Source of the DNA: Synergistaceae bacterium
Lineage (GTDB): Bacteria > Synergistota > Synergistia > Synergistales > Synergistaceae
Assembly: GCA_030533085.1 (NCBI GenBank)
Contig: JAUNJZ010000016.1
Location: 1 to 54,732 of the forward strand
DNA length: 54,732 nt
Reading direction: 5' to 3'
Program-made: the position numbers and the translations under genes
Shown here: in pieces, positions 43,672 through 51,278 of the stretch
Layout: each line of letters opens with the position of its first letter
How positions within the stretch are numbered: the stretch's first letter is position 1
Notes under the pieces: generated by a model
Database searches by the model: none
What the model was told of the DNA's origin: nothing
What the model saw: only the letters and a program-made list of their open reading frames with translations

Positions 43672-46600
43672 ATGTTCATGGAAAAAGAAATCTGTAATGA
43701 TACTTTGATGAACAACGGTACGCCCCCCCCCCCCTAGGCTGTAATAGGGTTCATTTTGCCTTATTATCGCTCATACTGCTCATTTCGCTATTTGCCTTCG
43801 CCTCTCCGGCGCGGGCGCTGACCCTGAACCCGGATGGCGTTTACGAGCTTGCCACAAGCCAGGACCTCATTGATTTTCGCGACGGTATAAACAGCGAAAA
43901 TATCGCTGCCTCATCTAACGCGAAGCTATCCGCCGATATAGACCTCGGCGGCACGAACTGGACGCCGATCGGCAATGGAGCTGTTCTGTATAACGGAACC
44001 TTCGACGGCGGCGGCCATACAATCAGCAATTACGAAATAACCGCAAACAACCTTACGGTTGTGAATGAACCTGACGTCGACGCCCACTCAGAGCCCCTCT
44101 ACTTTGCCGGCCTCTTTGGCCGGATAGCTGTAAGCGGCGACGTGCGCGGCCTCACAGTCAGCGGCGATATAAATATAACAGGGCTTCAAGTAAGGTACTA
44201 CACCGGCGGCGTCGCCGGGCAGAACCGCGGTACGATATCGAACTGCGTCAACAACGGCGCGCTCTCAGTCAGCCGCAGTCAAGGCAGCGGCAGCTGTAAG
44301 AGCTACGGGGGCGGCGTCGCTGGGTGGAACTGCGAGGGCGGCACGGTATCGAACTGCGAGAACAACGGCTTGGTTCGCGTCTCCGGCGATGTTGGCTGGA
44401 ACACCGCCGGCGGCGTCGTGGGGTATAACAAAGGCACAATAAAGAACAGCGCGAACAGCGGCGCGGTCTTAGCCCCCGGCGGCAGCAGCCGCAGCGAAGG
44501 CGACTACGCCGGCGGCGTTGTGGGTGATAACCACGGTATGATAACGGACTGCGCGAACCGCGGCGCGCTCACAGCCAACGGTTACAATTACAGCTACGCC
44601 GGCGGCGTAGCGGCGGAAAACCACGGCACGATAACAAACAGCGTGAACGGCGGCACGGTCTCGAACAACAATGGCCGTACTAGGAATTACGTTGGCGGCG
44701 TCGCGGGATGGAACCACGTCAACGCCGCGATATCGAACTGCGTGAACAACAGCGATGTCACAGCCGCATACAGAACCGGCTACGCCGGCGGCGTCGTGGG
44801 GTGGAACGGCGCCAATGAAGCTGCTGGGAATACGGCTTCCGACAGCACTACGATAACGAACTGCGTGAACCGCGGCAAAGTCTCCTCAAAATATAGCGCC
44901 GGCGGCATCGCGGGCTCTAACGGCTGCTGTGTCGCTTCAAGCACTGCTGTGATAACAAACTGCATGAACAACGGTGTGGTCGAAGCCTCTGAGAACAACA
45001 AAACCTACGCCGGCGGCGTCGCGGGGTGGAACCAGCCCGACGCCAAGATAACGAACTGCGCGAACAACGGCGCGGTCGCCGCATCCCTCACCGGTGGCGG
45101 CACCAACAGTTACGCTGGAGGCATCGTGGGGTGGAACGGCACCGATCCAGACATGGAAACATCTGACCCATCTGTTTGGGATGCGGTCAACAGCGGCACC
45201 GCTGCGATATCGAACTGCGCGAACAGCGGCGAGGTCACATCACCCGGTTTAGTCGGCGGCGTCGCGGGGTGGAACGGCTACCGTAGCAGTAGAGATCCAA
45301 GCTTTGCTGCGATAACGAACTGCGCGAACAGCGGCGCGCTCTCAGGCAACAACGTCGGCGGCGTCGCTTGGATAAACAAGCGCAACGGCACGATAACGAA
45401 CTGCGGCTGGCTCGCATCCCCCACGGTGACCGCCGGCATCGGCAGCAGCCAGTCCGGCAGCAGCAGCAGCAACGTAGTATCGTTCGACTCAACAGATAAT
45501 ATCGTCACGACAATCCTCCCAGCGAGCCGCGACATCACGGTCAGCCTGAACGGCAGAGCGGACGCCTTCGTCTCCTACCCTGGCACAGCCGCGAACATGG
45601 ACAGCTATTTCGTATCCGGCAGCCCCGTCATTTCCCCCGGCGGGCTGGTCTCTGTCGGCAGCGCGTGGCCCTACAGCCTGACGGCGGGATATACCCCCGG
45701 CGCAGCGACGCTCACCGCGGCCAACGCCGCGATAAAGGCGACTGACTTCTCAACAGTCAGCGGCGGCTCCCCCAGTCCCATAGCAGACGGCTATATTATC
45801 TCCCCTGACCTGAGCTGCGCGGTAACAGTCACAGGCACGCCGGCCGACTCCGTAACGATAAGCGGCGACACAAGCCTCGAAATCGGCCATACATCGACGC
45901 TCACAGCCGTCGTCTCACCGGCCGGCGCGATATACCCGACAGTGACCTGGAGCGTCAGCGGCGACGCGGTAACGCTCTCCGCGACAAGCGGCGGCAGCGT
46001 CACAGTCACCGCCGCCAAACGCGGCAGCGCAGCAATAACCGTGACCGCAGATGGCGGCCTCAGCGCCGACTGCGCCGTAACAGTAAAACAGCCCCTCGAC
46101 AGCGCGGTCATCACAATAGACCCCAGCGCCGACCTCACCTACAGCGGAACGGCAAAACAACCGGCCGTAACGGTGCAGGTAAACAGCAATGACGTAGACC
46201 CCTCCGGCTACACGGTAAGCTACACCAACAACATAAACGCGGGCACAGCCGCGGTAACAATAACAGGCCAGGGTTACTACAGCGGCACGGCAAGTGCGGA
46301 CTTCACCATCCAGAAAAAGAACGTGACGATAAAAGCCAACCCCCAGACCGTCACCTATGGCACACCCATCAGTCAGGGACCGAGCTATGTAACGGCAACC
46401 GGCCTCAACGACGGAGCGAGCGTCACAGACATAACGCTGACCCCGAACAGAACAGATTTCGGAACAGGCATAATAACGCCATCCGCCGCGGTGATAACGG
46501 CAAACGGCGCGAACGTAACCGACAACTACAATATAACCTGGGACACCGGCTCGCTCACAATCTCACCCAAAGTGGTGACGATAACGCCGAATGCTGGACA

Positions 46601-49574
46601 GCACAAAGTCTACGGCGACACAGACCCGACATTCGGCTACACGTCAAGCGAAAGCGGCCTGACGTTCACCGGCGAGCTCTCCCGCGTTTCCGGCGGAGAT
46701 GTAGGAAACTACGCCTACCGCCTCGGCACGCTCAGCGCCGGAAGCAACTACAGCCTGAGGATCGCCTCCGGACAGCATTTTGAAATAACGGCCAAAGCGG
46801 TGACGATAACGGCGAACGCCCAGACTGTCACCTACGGCACGCCCATCAGTCAGGAGACGAACTGCGTAACGGCAAGCGGCCTCAACAGCGGAGCGAGCGT
46901 CACAGCCATAACGCTGAGCCAGGACATAACAGATGTCGGAACAGGCGCAATAACGCCATCCGCCGCGACGATAACGGCAAACGGCGCGAACGTAACAGCC
47001 AACTACAATATAAGCTACATCGACGGGACGCTCATAATCACGGCCAAAGCAGTGACGATAACGCCGAACGCCGGACAGCAAAAAGTCTACGGCGACACAG
47101 AGCCGGCATTCAGCTACACGTCAAGCGAAAGCGGCCTGACATTCACCGGCGGGCTCTCCCGCGCTTCCGGCGAAGATGTAGGAAACTACGACTATAACAT
47201 CGGCACGCTCAGCGCCGGAAACAACTACAGCCTGACGCTAGCCTCCGGACAGCATTTTGAGATAACAGCCAAAGCGGTGACAATAACGGCCAACGACCAG
47301 ACCGTCGCCTACGGCACGCCCATCAGTCAGGGAACGAACAATGTAACGGCAAGCGGCCTCAACAGCGAAGCGAGCGTCACAGCCATAACGCTGACCCAGG
47401 ACAGAACAGATGCCGGAACAGGCTCAATAACGCCATCCGCCGCGGCGATAACGGCAAGCGGCGCGAACGTAACAGCCAACTACGCTATAAGCTACATCAA
47501 CGGAACGCTCACAATCACTCCGACTCCGGCCTCCCCCGACGTGACCGAAAAGGGGCGCACGGACGGAGACAACTCCGGCGTACTTGAAATAGAGGCCAAC
47601 ACAACGGAAGACTTCGCGATATACGACGCGCTGAAGGACATGACCATATCCGGCGACCTGCCGGCAGGCATAAGCGACGCCGCGAAAGCCCTCCAAGCCA
47701 CCAGCGCCGACGTCGACACATCGACCGACATCTATACAAAAGAGCAGATAAGACAGGCCGTCGCCGGCTACTGGGACGTCACGGACAACAGCGAAAAGAA
47801 AATACGCGTAGTAGACGTAAAGAACACGATAGCGACAAGAACGGAAGAAACGCTCTACGCCAAATTCTGGAGAATGCTCGTCAGCACCTTCACCAACAAC
47901 CACGGCGTGAACAGCCTCTCCGACGACGCCTACCTGCCGCTGCAAACCAACTTCACCATCACCAGCGCCGACATAGCCGCCCTGCCTGACGAGCTGAAAA
48001 ACGGACTCTCGGCAGACAACCTCCTTGAGCGCGTAAGCCTCTTCGCCGTAGTATCCGAAGACAGCGGAGTTCACGCCAGAAGCCTGTATGATGCCGTAAG
48101 CGCGGACAAAAACGCCTACATAACAGTAAGCGGAGACAACGACAGCGGCTACAGCGTACATACCCGCGTAATGCTCTTCGACATGCCCGGAGGCGTATCA
48201 GGAGACAAGACGACGGGAGCGAAATGGGTAAAGCCGCTCAAAGTCTCGAACTCGCAGGGACGCGACAACACAAAAGACAACTACTTCATCGTACAGGACG
48301 GAGCAAGCGACGACAGCTACGAGCTCTGCCTCGCCTTCGCCGCGAAAGAGACCAACTACGCGACAGTAAACGTGACAATATCGGGAGATATAACGGCCGA
48401 AAGCGTATACTGGACAATAAGCGGCGACAGCACGATACATAACGGCAATACAAGCGCCGACATAAGAGGCGAAGCGCAAAGCGTCACATTCCACGAAATA
48501 AGCGGCTATACAGTCACGCTAAGCGACGGAACGCGGACGCTCTCCCCCGACGTCATGACAATAAGCAAAGACGTCGAATGGGGCGAAAGCTGGAACATAA
48601 CGGCGGCATACGCGAGAATCGCGGTTGAGGGCGTAACGCTCGACCGCGCCTCCGCCGTGCTTGCCAAAGGAGACACGCTGGCGCTCACAGCGACAGTGAC
48701 CCCCGGCAACGCCTACGACAAAGCGGTAAGCTGGACAAGCGGCAATCCTGAGGTCGCCACAGTGAGCGCCGGCGGCCTTGTGACGGCGACAGGAAGCGGC
48801 AGTACGGCAATCACGGCGGCAGCGGGAGGCCAAAGCGCAAGCTGCACCGTAACGGTACTCAAAACCGTATCCGACGACAGTGAAATAACGGTCATAACGC
48901 CAGCGCCGCTTCTCCCCGCAGTTTCAGGAGAGAATCTGCTGCCGGTGCTGGCGGGTTACGTCAACAGTCAGGAAGAAAGACAAAAAACGCTTGAACAAAG
49001 CGGCTTCCGCTATGACGAACTGGCGACGGACGACAACGGCAATCTCCTCGTTACCGGGGATACTGTCAGAAGAGCCATAGCCGACATTGAGAGCAAATCC
49101 GGAGCGATCTCCCACGACCACGTCACCACGCTGCCGGTAGTAACCTCCTCCGCCGACCAGGCCGGCATGATACACGTCCTCGGCTTTGCAGTAAGCGGAG
49201 ACATATTCGGCGAAATAACAGACGTGAGAGATATCAAAGTGATGAAAATCCTCCCGAACGGCGGCGGCGAGCTATTCACCGTCGCGACCTCGCCGGAAAG
49301 CTTCGCCGACAAACATACGGCGCTCTTCGACGCGGAAGGCGGCATAGTCGCCGGCGCGGTGGATAAGACGGCAAACTACACGCTGACCATATTCATCCTC
49401 GACGGCGGAGAATTTGACCTATCGCCGGAAGCGCGCAAAGTCACCGACCCGATGTCGATACTCCGCGTACAGCCCACCCAGACCTGCAATTCCTCAAACG
49501 GCTGCGCATCAGGCATTGGAGCGATAGCGTTGCTAGCGCTCCTGCCGCTGGCGCTGTGGAGAAGAAAAAAGTAA
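43672..49574 (+). CDS. Very large secreted adhesin-like protein, frame broken at a poly-C tract
   Basis: ATG 43672 has AAGGAG at 43658-43663, eight bases upstream, but its frame ends at TAG just after 12 C residues. Restoring frame (13 or 10 Cs) joins MFMEKEICNDTLMNNGT to a signal peptide (ALLSLILLISLFAFASPARA) and then 1900-odd residues. No usable start exists in the long frame until GTG 44061, beyond the signal peptide. Order: about 12 GLUG-like repeats (GGVAGWN...ITNCANNG), an Ig-like Big2 domain, MBG-type repeats, an acidic middle region, a second Big2 domain (VTLDRASAVLAKGDTLALTA), and a Synergist-CTERM-like end with NGCASG, hydrophobic helix and WRRKK. Probably exported and anchored; likely adhesin, phase variable. 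In this copy it would be OFF. Confidence 0.85.
43723..43734 (+). repeat. Homopolymeric C12 tract inside the start region of the surface protein
   Basis: Twelve consecutive C residues after ACG codon 43720-43722. Slipped-strand changes in such tracts switch genes on and off in many host-associated bacteria. Lengths of 10, 13 or 16 keep the signal peptide and body in frame with ATG 43672. With 12 a TAG follows at once; with 11 a TAA is met two codons later. Confidence 0.9.
46566..47519 (+). repeat. Two tandem 477-bp coding repeats (MBG-type adhesin units)
   Basis: Positions 46566-47042 and 47043-47519 are near-copies offset by exactly 477 bases (159 codons). A partial unit precedes them (46311-46565). 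Each unit has a KVYGDT-containing half and a TVTYGTPISQ-containing half. The nucleotide identity is high enough to allow recombination and copy-number change. Confidence 0.8.
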
Positions 49575-49873: not shown

Positions 49874-49897
49874 CTTAAGTGGATAAAAATGAATAAT

Positions 49898-50012
49898 ACC
49901 CCGAGCCTGTTTCCCTGTGGAAATTACTTCGCTTCTATGGGAGCAGGCCGATGGGTGTCTCCGGAAACGGGGGCGCCTCCCGTACGGAAAGGGGAAGGAA
50001 CGACCTTTGCGC
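49898..50012 (+). ncRNA. Molybdenum cofactor (Moco) riboswitch
   Basis: The conserved order of Moco RNA elements is present: CCGAGCC; a P2 stem (GCCTG-TTCCC with GGGA-CAGGC); a P3 hairpin (GTGTCTCC/GGGGGCGC closed by GGAAAC); then GCCTCCCG, GGAAAGGGGAAGGAACGACC. GGAACGACC at 49997-50005 is the most diagnostic block. Moco riboswitches usually repress cofactor synthesis or transport genes, or tune molybdoenzymes. Here the downstream gene is a response regulator. A pyrimidine stretch at 50026-50038 can pair with either this block or the ribosome site, a plausible on/off platform. I could not run a covariance search. Confidence 0.75.
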
Positions 50013-50081: not shown

Positions 50082-50777
50082 ATGCGCAGTTTAAAAGTTT
50101 TGATTGCGGAATCGGATCCCCTTCTTCAAAAGCTCTATTCCGAGGTTATCGTGAATGATACGGCCTTTACCCTTCTCAAATGCGTCTCTACAGGGCCGCA
50201 GATGTTTGAGGCCATGCGCTGCGTCGACGTCGACTTGGTGCTGCTTGACCTCTTCCTGAAGGACTTCAGCGCCATCGAGGGGCTGGACGACCTGCGCAAG
50301 CAGTTTTCGCGCACGGATTATATCGTCGTCTCTTCCGGCGACAATCCTGAGCTGGTGCGCAAGGCGCTTTGCGCCGGCGTCTTTGAGTTTCTCGTCAAGC
50401 CCTTTTCCTTTGACAGGCTTCGCGCGGCGCTGAAAAATTACCAGATCTATCATCATTCGCTCACCGGGCGCACACGCCCGTGGCAGCAGGAGGATCTTGA
50501 CGCGCTGGTATCCATGAAGATCCACGACCCGTCGTTGGCGCGCAATCGCTCGATCCCTAAGGGATTGCAGCTCAAATGTCTTAACGACATAGAGTCTTTC
50601 CTGAAGGAGAACGAAGAGACATATTCGGCGCAGGAGATAGGCGACCGGCTTGGCATATCCCGTTCGACGGCGCGCCGCTATCTTGAGTTTCTTACCATGA
50701 GCGAGCGCGTTGTGGTGGAGTATGCCTACCGACGGGTAGGCCGGCCGGAGAAGCGCTACCGAATGGCGCTGCTTTAG
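50082..50777 (+). CDS. CitB/DcuR-like response regulator, orphan
   Basis: 231 residues. The receiver domain (1-120) has the acidic pocket AESD, the phosphoacceptor Asp in VDLVLLDLFLKD and the Lys in FLVKPFSF. A C-terminal helix-turn-helix (about 175-231) has YSAQEIGDRLGISRSTARRY and RRVGRPEKRYRM, as in CitB/CitT/DcuR regulators of carboxylate and anaerobic metabolism. ATG 50082 follows AAAGGAGG at a 10-base spacing; the open frame further upstream only reads through the riboswitch. No histidine kinase is adjacent. Next to it is a molybdoenzyme gene, a possible target. Confidence 0.9.
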   Translation: MRSLKVLIAESDPLLQKLYSEVIVNDTAFTLLKCVSTGPQMFEAMRCVDVDLVLLDLFLKDFSAIEGLDDLRKQFSRTDYIVVSSGDNPELVRKALCAGVFEFLVKPFSFDRLRAALKNYQIYHHSLTGRTRPWQQEDLDALVSMKIHDPSLARNRSIPKGLQLKCLNDIESFLKENEETYSAQEIGDRLGISRSTARRYLEFLTMSERVVVEYAYRRVGRPEKRYRMALL

Positions 50778-50800: not shown

Positions 50801-50832
50801 GAGCCGGCGATAATTCCGCCGGCTCTTTTTTT
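50801..50832 (+). terminator. Terminator of the response regulator gene
   Basis: Perfect 9-bp stem GAGCCGGCG/CGCCGGCTC, 7-base loop and seven T residues. Confidence 0.92.
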
Positions 50833-51005: not shown

Positions 51006-51027
51006 ATTGTTGCAACATTGTTGCAAC
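51006..51027. repeat. Two perfect tandem 11-bp repeats, each with palindrome GTTGCAAC
   Basis: ATTGTTGCAAC at 51006-51016 and 51017-51027. Each holds the 8-base palindrome GTTGCAAC; spacing of 11 bases is one helical turn. It lies just after the expected transcription start, so a repressor site is likely. Confidence 0.55.
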
Positions 51028-51172
51028 CCCCGAGTCCAGCCTCCTAAAGCCTGACAGCCACGGAGGCGCGACCGGCGAACCGAAAGGTTCCGAGGGCCTG
51101 TAAGGGAAACCGTCCGGCCTCCCGGGATGCGGTAAGCATCCGATTAGGAAAGGGGAAAACGAGCCGCCGAGG
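51028..51172 (+). ncRNA. Structured leader RNA, possible Moco/Tuco riboswitch variant
   Basis: Stems that can be drawn: GCCTCC (51039-51044) with GGAGGC (51062-51067); GAACC-GAAA-GGTTC (51077-51090); GGATGC-GGTAA-GCATCC (51125-51141). In order it repeats many landmarks of the Moco element 1.1 kb upstream: CCGAG, GGCGCGACC, GCCTCCC, GGAAAGGGGAA and ACGAGCC. The spacing differs and there is an added hairpin, and GGAACGACC is not exact. It precedes a molybdenum hydroxylase, a fitting target. It may be a diverged Moco or tungsten-cofactor class, or a new RNA. Confidence 0.5.
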
Positions 51173-51226
51173 CAGGCGCGCAAAGTTTTTCTTCCCTATG
51201 AAAATGCGGTCAAAGGATCCACACAT

Positions 51227-51249
51227 GCCTCCGAGTCCATTGGACGGAG
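51227..51249 (+). other. Hairpin able to compete for the ribosome site
   Basis: CCTCCG pairs with CGGAGG across CCATTGG, just before AGGGAGGA of the next gene. The CCTCC arm could alternatively pair with GGGAGG of the ribosome site at 51264-51269. It would link the upstream RNA to translation. Confidence 0.4.
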
Positions 51250-51278
51250 GAGAACAATATTGAGGGAGGAATTCATCT

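Follow-up and report, generated by a model that had tools for sequence, protein, structure and literature searches.

The P3 stem of the Moco RNA family was described in 2008 by Regulski et al., who divided these RNAs by its presence and, on the basis of gene association, connected members with P3 to Moco and members lacking it to Tuco (PMC2408646). In the passages of that report consulted here, removing P3 did no more than disable the E. coli RNA, and S. wolfei and G. metallireducens are given as carriers of tandem Moco RNAs. Among the papers listed by our literature searches on the Moco riboswitch, RF01055 and Synergistota, none deals, as judged by title and the start of the abstract, with the leader analysed below. 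A study of contiguous riboswitches (PMC12452182) counts Synergistota among the riboswitch-enriched phyla, and Moco is not named in the passages of it that were seen.

We analysed a 54,732-nt stretch of contig JAUNJZ010000016.1 from a Synergistaceae bacterium (referred to as the window in the rest of the text). An Rfam scan of the window returned two matches to RF01055 and none to any other family. The first lies upstream of a response-regulator gene, while the second, at 51016-51171 on the + strand (48.7 bits compared to a gathering score of 36, E = 1.2e-8), precedes the gene of a molybdopterin-dependent aldehyde oxidoreductase (AOR) whose product contains the five expected Pfam domains Fer2, Fer2_2, Ald_Xan_dh_C, MoCoBD_1 and MoCoBD_2 (Table 1). 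Helices P1, P2, P4 and P5 around the conserved junction are present in the AOR leader according to both the Rfam alignment and RNAalifold on 14 orthologues, the RNA precedes a gene for a Moco enzyme (NF045668 above cut-off), and a P3 stem stands between P2 and P4, which assigns the leader to the P3-containing (Moco-type) subgroup and not to the P3-less (Tuco-type) one. It has in common with the Moco RNA motif, as presented in the parts of PMC2408646 consulted, helices P1 to P5, the GAAA loop on P4, the receptor element in P2, P3 and the site before a Moco-enzyme gene. In contrast to the Rfam consensus and to the E. coli moaA leader, which by eye combines P3 with a short P5 loop, the AOR leader carries a hairpin within its P5 loop, which we call P6. 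This loop is 24 nt long, compared to 5 to 8 nt in short-loop members (5 nt in L065).

The AOR leader is an ordinary, conserved P3-containing RF01055 riboswitch with an optional P5-loop hairpin. The first-pass annotation had already recognized a second Moco-family RNA before a molybdenum hydroxylase gene, with the landmarks of the first plus extra hairpins, and all of its elements are found where it placed them (CCCCGAG at 51028; hairpins at 51077-51090, 51125-51141 and 51228-51250). Its suggestion of a new Moco/Tuco variant has to be abandoned: of the extra hairpins, one corresponds to P3, a stem that belongs to the family, and the other is the optional extension of the P5 loop. The leader exceeds the RF01055 gathering score as it stands and does not form a new class.

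Table 1. Features of the AOR locus and of the neighbouring response-regulator locus (positions in the window).
Feature	Position	Strand	Basis or remark
First Moco RNA, without P3, 5-nt P5 loop (Tuco-type)	49887-50010	+	RF01055, 69 bits
DpiA/DcuR-like response-regulator gene	50082-50777		Downstream of the P3-less RNA at 49887-50010
Palindrome TTGCAAC-N3-GTTGCAA, likely operator	51010-51026	.	Exact; adjoins leader start
Aptamer core	51028-51155	+	128 nt; P1 CCCC 51028-51031 with GGGG 51152-51155; pairs invariant in 14 sequences
P2 with tetraloop-receptor-like CCTAA	51034-51072	+	Rfam match and RNAalifold
P3 stem GAACC-GAAA-GGTTC, mark of the Moco-type (P3-containing) form	51077-51090	+	Perfect; pairing kept in 14/14
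P4 with GAAA tetraloop	51094-51120	+	Rfam match and RNAalifold
P6 (name used here), 6-bp hairpin GGATGC-GGTAA-GCATCC within the P5 loop	51125-51141	+	Perfect
Pyrimidine tract, predicted Shine-Dalgarno partner	51189-51197	+	Folding
Hairpin between tract and Shine-Dalgarno, holds second CCGAGTCCA	51228-51250	+	Folding
Shine-Dalgarno GAGGGAGGAA	51262-51271	+	7 nt upstream of ATG
Regulated gene, molybdopterin-dependent AOR, 948 aa	51279-54125	+	NF045668, 1388 bits, cut-off 1100

A pattern scan revealed a terminator-like hairpin at 50801-50825, just 3′ of the response-regulator gene, which parts this gene from the AOR gene. The palindrome that adjoins the start of the leader has an expectation of 0.01 by chance in the window; a single further site, with 1 mismatch, was found in the whole genome. 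It is kept in the orthologous leaders, including those of genus g20 that are devoid of the RNA, and is likely an operator, perhaps that of the adjoining response regulator. The association of an AOR gene with a response regulator preceded by its own P3-less Moco RNA recurs among relatives. Upstream of both RNAs, positions 44061-49574 contain an ORF of 1837 residues that resembles a repeat-rich surface protein and ends, by eye, with a hydrophobic segment and a basic tail.

As envisaged in the first-pass annotation, covariation was examined among homologous leaders, and P3 and P6 do covary. The set consisted of 14 distinct orthologous leaders from one Synergistaceae clade, L107 being left out because its aptamer is identical to that of L080. 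P3 and P6 were scored in the individual folds of the sequences, and the register of P3 was set by hand; a plain MAFFT alignment shifts P3 and P4 by one base in some rows. The four basal positions of P3 are paired in 14/14 leaders, and positions 2 to 4 each occur as two or three different Watson-Crick pairs. P6 forms in every one of the 14 leaders, with 4 to 7 bp, and for each P6 loop at least 96.7% of the 300 shuffles fold less well than the loop itself. Five of the six basal positions of P6 vary, four with two Watson-Crick types and the fifth by G-U wobble only. RNAalifold on the 14 leaders predicted 29 pairs, 17 of which have at least one double change, and supports P1 to P4; run on the plain MAFFT alignment, it did not recover P6 because the columns are misaligned. 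P3 and P6 are real helices, and the position of the RNA ahead of the AOR gene is conserved. While the free energy of the whole leader is near ordinary (z = −1.12), its structure is far beyond chance, as seen from the RF01055 score and from the covarying P3 and P6 in the 14 orthologues.

Strong matches to the AOR protein occur in 76 of the 185 genomes of the phylum. The DNA upstream of 60 AOR genes was searched with Rfam in its entirety; with the window added, this yielded 43 RF01055 RNAs immediately preceding AOR and 12 that precede the response regulator. P6 is present in 15 of the 43 AOR leaders (L107 included) and in 0 of the 12 response-regulator leaders; the other 28 AOR leaders have a short P5 loop. 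All 15 P6-bearing AOR leaders also have P3. As read, the 28 short-P5 AOR leaders and the response-regulator leaders are P3-less (Tuco-type), a call made from the P2-to-P4 span that is imperfect, given that 5 of the 28 have spans of 61-64 (L106, L110 and L111, read as long P2 tips; L118, read as a misplaced P4; and L120, judged by length alone). The AOR leader of the window thus differs by its P3 from the RNA at 49887-50010, from the response-regulator leaders and from the AOR leaders elsewhere in Synergistota that were read as Tuco-type.

P6 is also found outside the phylum. A scan of genome contigs for the long-P5-loop pattern gave at least 80 loci, among which P5-loop hairpins occur in many phyla. 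Of the 80 loci listed, 61 have a loop with a folding energy of −3 kcal/mol or lower, 61 agree with a crude core test, and 49 combine the core and the fold; some of the remaining listed loci look like chance matches. Twenty P6-type loci, chosen by eye from Chlorobiota, Acidobacteriota, Chloroflexota, Bacteroidota, Clostridia, Coriobacteriia and others, all scored above the RF01055 gathering score (20/20). By eye, P3 is present in some of these loci and absent in others. The P6-bearing members from Bacteroidota, Acidobacteriota, Chloroflexota and other phyla have the P5-loop hairpin in common with the AOR leader and differ from it in their hosts and, for some, in lacking P3. The occurrence of P5-loop hairpins in many phyla rules out P6 as a lineage-specific invention; it is an optional RF01055 extension already present in members of other phyla. 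A new RNA class is likewise ruled out by the RF01055 scores of the AOR leader and of the P6-type loci elsewhere. In a broader form, a class or subclass marked by P3 plus P6 and binding another ligand, e.g. a cytosine-dinucleotide form of the cofactor, would agree with the finding that P3 and P6 occur together only before AOR among the classified Synergistota leaders. We nevertheless consider it improbable: the whole RF01055 model is matched, P6-type loci of other phyla match RF01055 as well, and the junction core is unchanged.

According to the P3 rule, the AOR leader, an ordinary RF01055 member, would sense Moco, and the RNA at 49887 would sense Tuco. The 14 P3+P6 rows of a 30-protein AOR tree all fall within a single 18-row clade (support 100/100), of which four rows have no RNA. 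On the 12-row sister side, a P3-less RNA occurs in 5 rows and no RNA in 7. The second copy of G167 (L069) is absent from this tree. In three g20 leaders (L066, L067 and L069), the RNA is gone and the palindrome and ribosome site remain, while G129 (L078) and G167 (L068) have different upstream DNA that resembles, by eye, a membrane-protein gene. It is conceivable, and we propose it only tentatively, that in one clade the switch before a homologous AOR changed from a tungsten-type (P3-less) to a molybdenum-type (P3) form because the enzyme would use molybdenum there and tungsten or either metal in its relatives. If so, the gene cluster would hold one sensor of each type about 1 kb apart, and the natural pairs before the same enzyme would allow the P3 rule for Moco and Tuco to be tested. 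The value of the locus is comparative, since homologous enzymes are preceded by P3-containing RNAs in one clade and by P3-less ones in its sister, and both forms occur in one genome, which makes these natural swaps comparable; ordinary as a riboswitch, it is worth attention as a test bed for whether P3 separates Moco from Tuco sensing.

To mimic the bound state, the 3′ strand of P1 was taken away, and the 14 platforms were compared to 40 shuffled sets. With this strand removed, the mean unpaired probability of the Shine-Dalgarno was 0.205 in the 14 leaders compared to 0.315 in the shuffled sets (sd 0.031, minimum 0.239), while with the strand freed it was 0.355 compared to 0.350. The mean gain upon freeing the strand (0.150) lies above all 40 shuffled sets (mean 0.034, sd 0.026, maximum 0.103); 10 leaders show a positive gain, 3 show none and in 1 the value is slightly below zero, and since the 14 leaders are related, they are not 14 independent tests. 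In the window leader with P1 closed, the Shine-Dalgarno is 0.13 unpaired, a value as low being reached in 2% of 60 shuffles. Leader by leader, the pairing between tract and Shine-Dalgarno does not exceed that in shuffles (Fisher P = 0.14 across related sequences). In the window, the P1 strand reaches its most favourable duplex energy with the terminal hairpin and not with the tract, a value at chance level (P = 0.53); such single-leader duplex tests lend weak support to the platform. In many relatives, GGAAAGGGG, the closing strand of P1, is able to compete for a tract of this kind.

Folding of the 14 platforms gives moderate support to a translational OFF switch, and the P3-containing riboswitch probably controls AOR translation in this manner, through pairing between the tract and the Shine-Dalgarno. 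Ligand binding closes P1 as a general rule in such riboswitches. Binding of Moco would close the P1 helix and take up its GGGG strand, leaving the downstream pyrimidine tract free to pair with the Shine-Dalgarno, and translation would fall; when the cofactor is absent, the GGAAAGGGG strand would compete for the tract and the Shine-Dalgarno would open. In this scheme we infer Moco as the ligand, closure of P1 by the ligand and the sign of control. Masking of the Shine-Dalgarno is thus predicted to involve a separate tract, whereas the proposal for E. coli, in the passages of PMC2408646 consulted, places it within P1. The first-pass annotation suggested that the terminal hairpin may compete with the ribosome site. 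The likely ribosome site, however, is not the GGAGG sequestered by this hairpin but GAGGGAGGAA, for which pairing with 51189-51197 is predicted. No intrinsic terminator was found by pattern scan between 51156 and the AOR gene, which does not suggest a transcription-terminating switch. In L118, a P3-less AOR leader from another family, a terminator-like hairpin lies 3′ of the aptamer and fits OFF control.

OFF control by a cofactor is not what intuition suggests for an enzyme that uses it. The opposite arrangement, in which cofactor binding exposes the Shine-Dalgarno and the enzyme is made only when the cofactor exists, is what one would naturally expect of a gene with a Moco-using product, and 4 of the 14 leaders miss the OFF-type change. 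An ON switch nonetheless appears unlikely, because in 10 of the 14 leaders the Shine-Dalgarno is hidden once P1 closes, with a mean beyond the 40 shuffled sets, and because of the hairpin of L118. Also against OFF control, P2 and P4 of the window copy are weakened, and the RNA is lacking in three g20 genomes and in G129. By eye, P2 of the window copy contains two mismatches and P4 another two, which is consistent with its modest RF01055 score. Together with the loss of the RNA in sister genus g20, which yet keeps the palindrome and the ribosome site, the mismatches and the 48.7 bits could point to a decaying riboswitch whose structure remains in the window genome after regulation was lost. We regard decay as very unlikely, as P1, P3, P6, the GAAA loop and the predicted occlusion of the Shine-Dalgarno are all intact.

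The CCGAGTCCA string noticed at first pass does recur exactly, at 51030-51038 and 51231-51239, but the repeat is not conserved in relatives: a match of 9 between the aptamer 5′ strand and the platform is absent in the 13 other leaders, and L074 and L070 contain unrelated 8-base matches. A direct repeat of 9 or more was obtained in 10.9% of 1000 shuffles. A narrower test of the aptamer 5′ strand against the window platform gave 0.3% of shuffles, this test having been chosen after the repeat was noticed. A role of CCGAGTCCA as a strand-exchange device is unsupported, since shuffles also give repeats of this length and this one is not conserved.

Other RF01055 loci were encountered in the phylum. 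Tandem RF01055 RNAs (L001 and L004; G000:C23:119257-119413 and 119622-119741) lie before the gene for the substrate-binding protein of an ABC transporter, which from its sequence we take to be TupA-like; 13 of 20 scanned loci of this kind in relatives also have two RF01055 RNAs. By eye, a terminator-like hairpin lies 3′ of the first tandem RNA. In relatives, the second RNA shows a CCCTGAA core variant; it is weak in the window genome (42.9 bits). Divergent pairs of RF01055 RNAs occur on opposite strands about 140-155 bases apart (G042:C188:5708-5827/5970-6089 and G041:C73:17018-17139/17293-17412). Finally, another long RF01055 match (L274) precedes a gene that, named by eye from its sequence, is MoeA-like.
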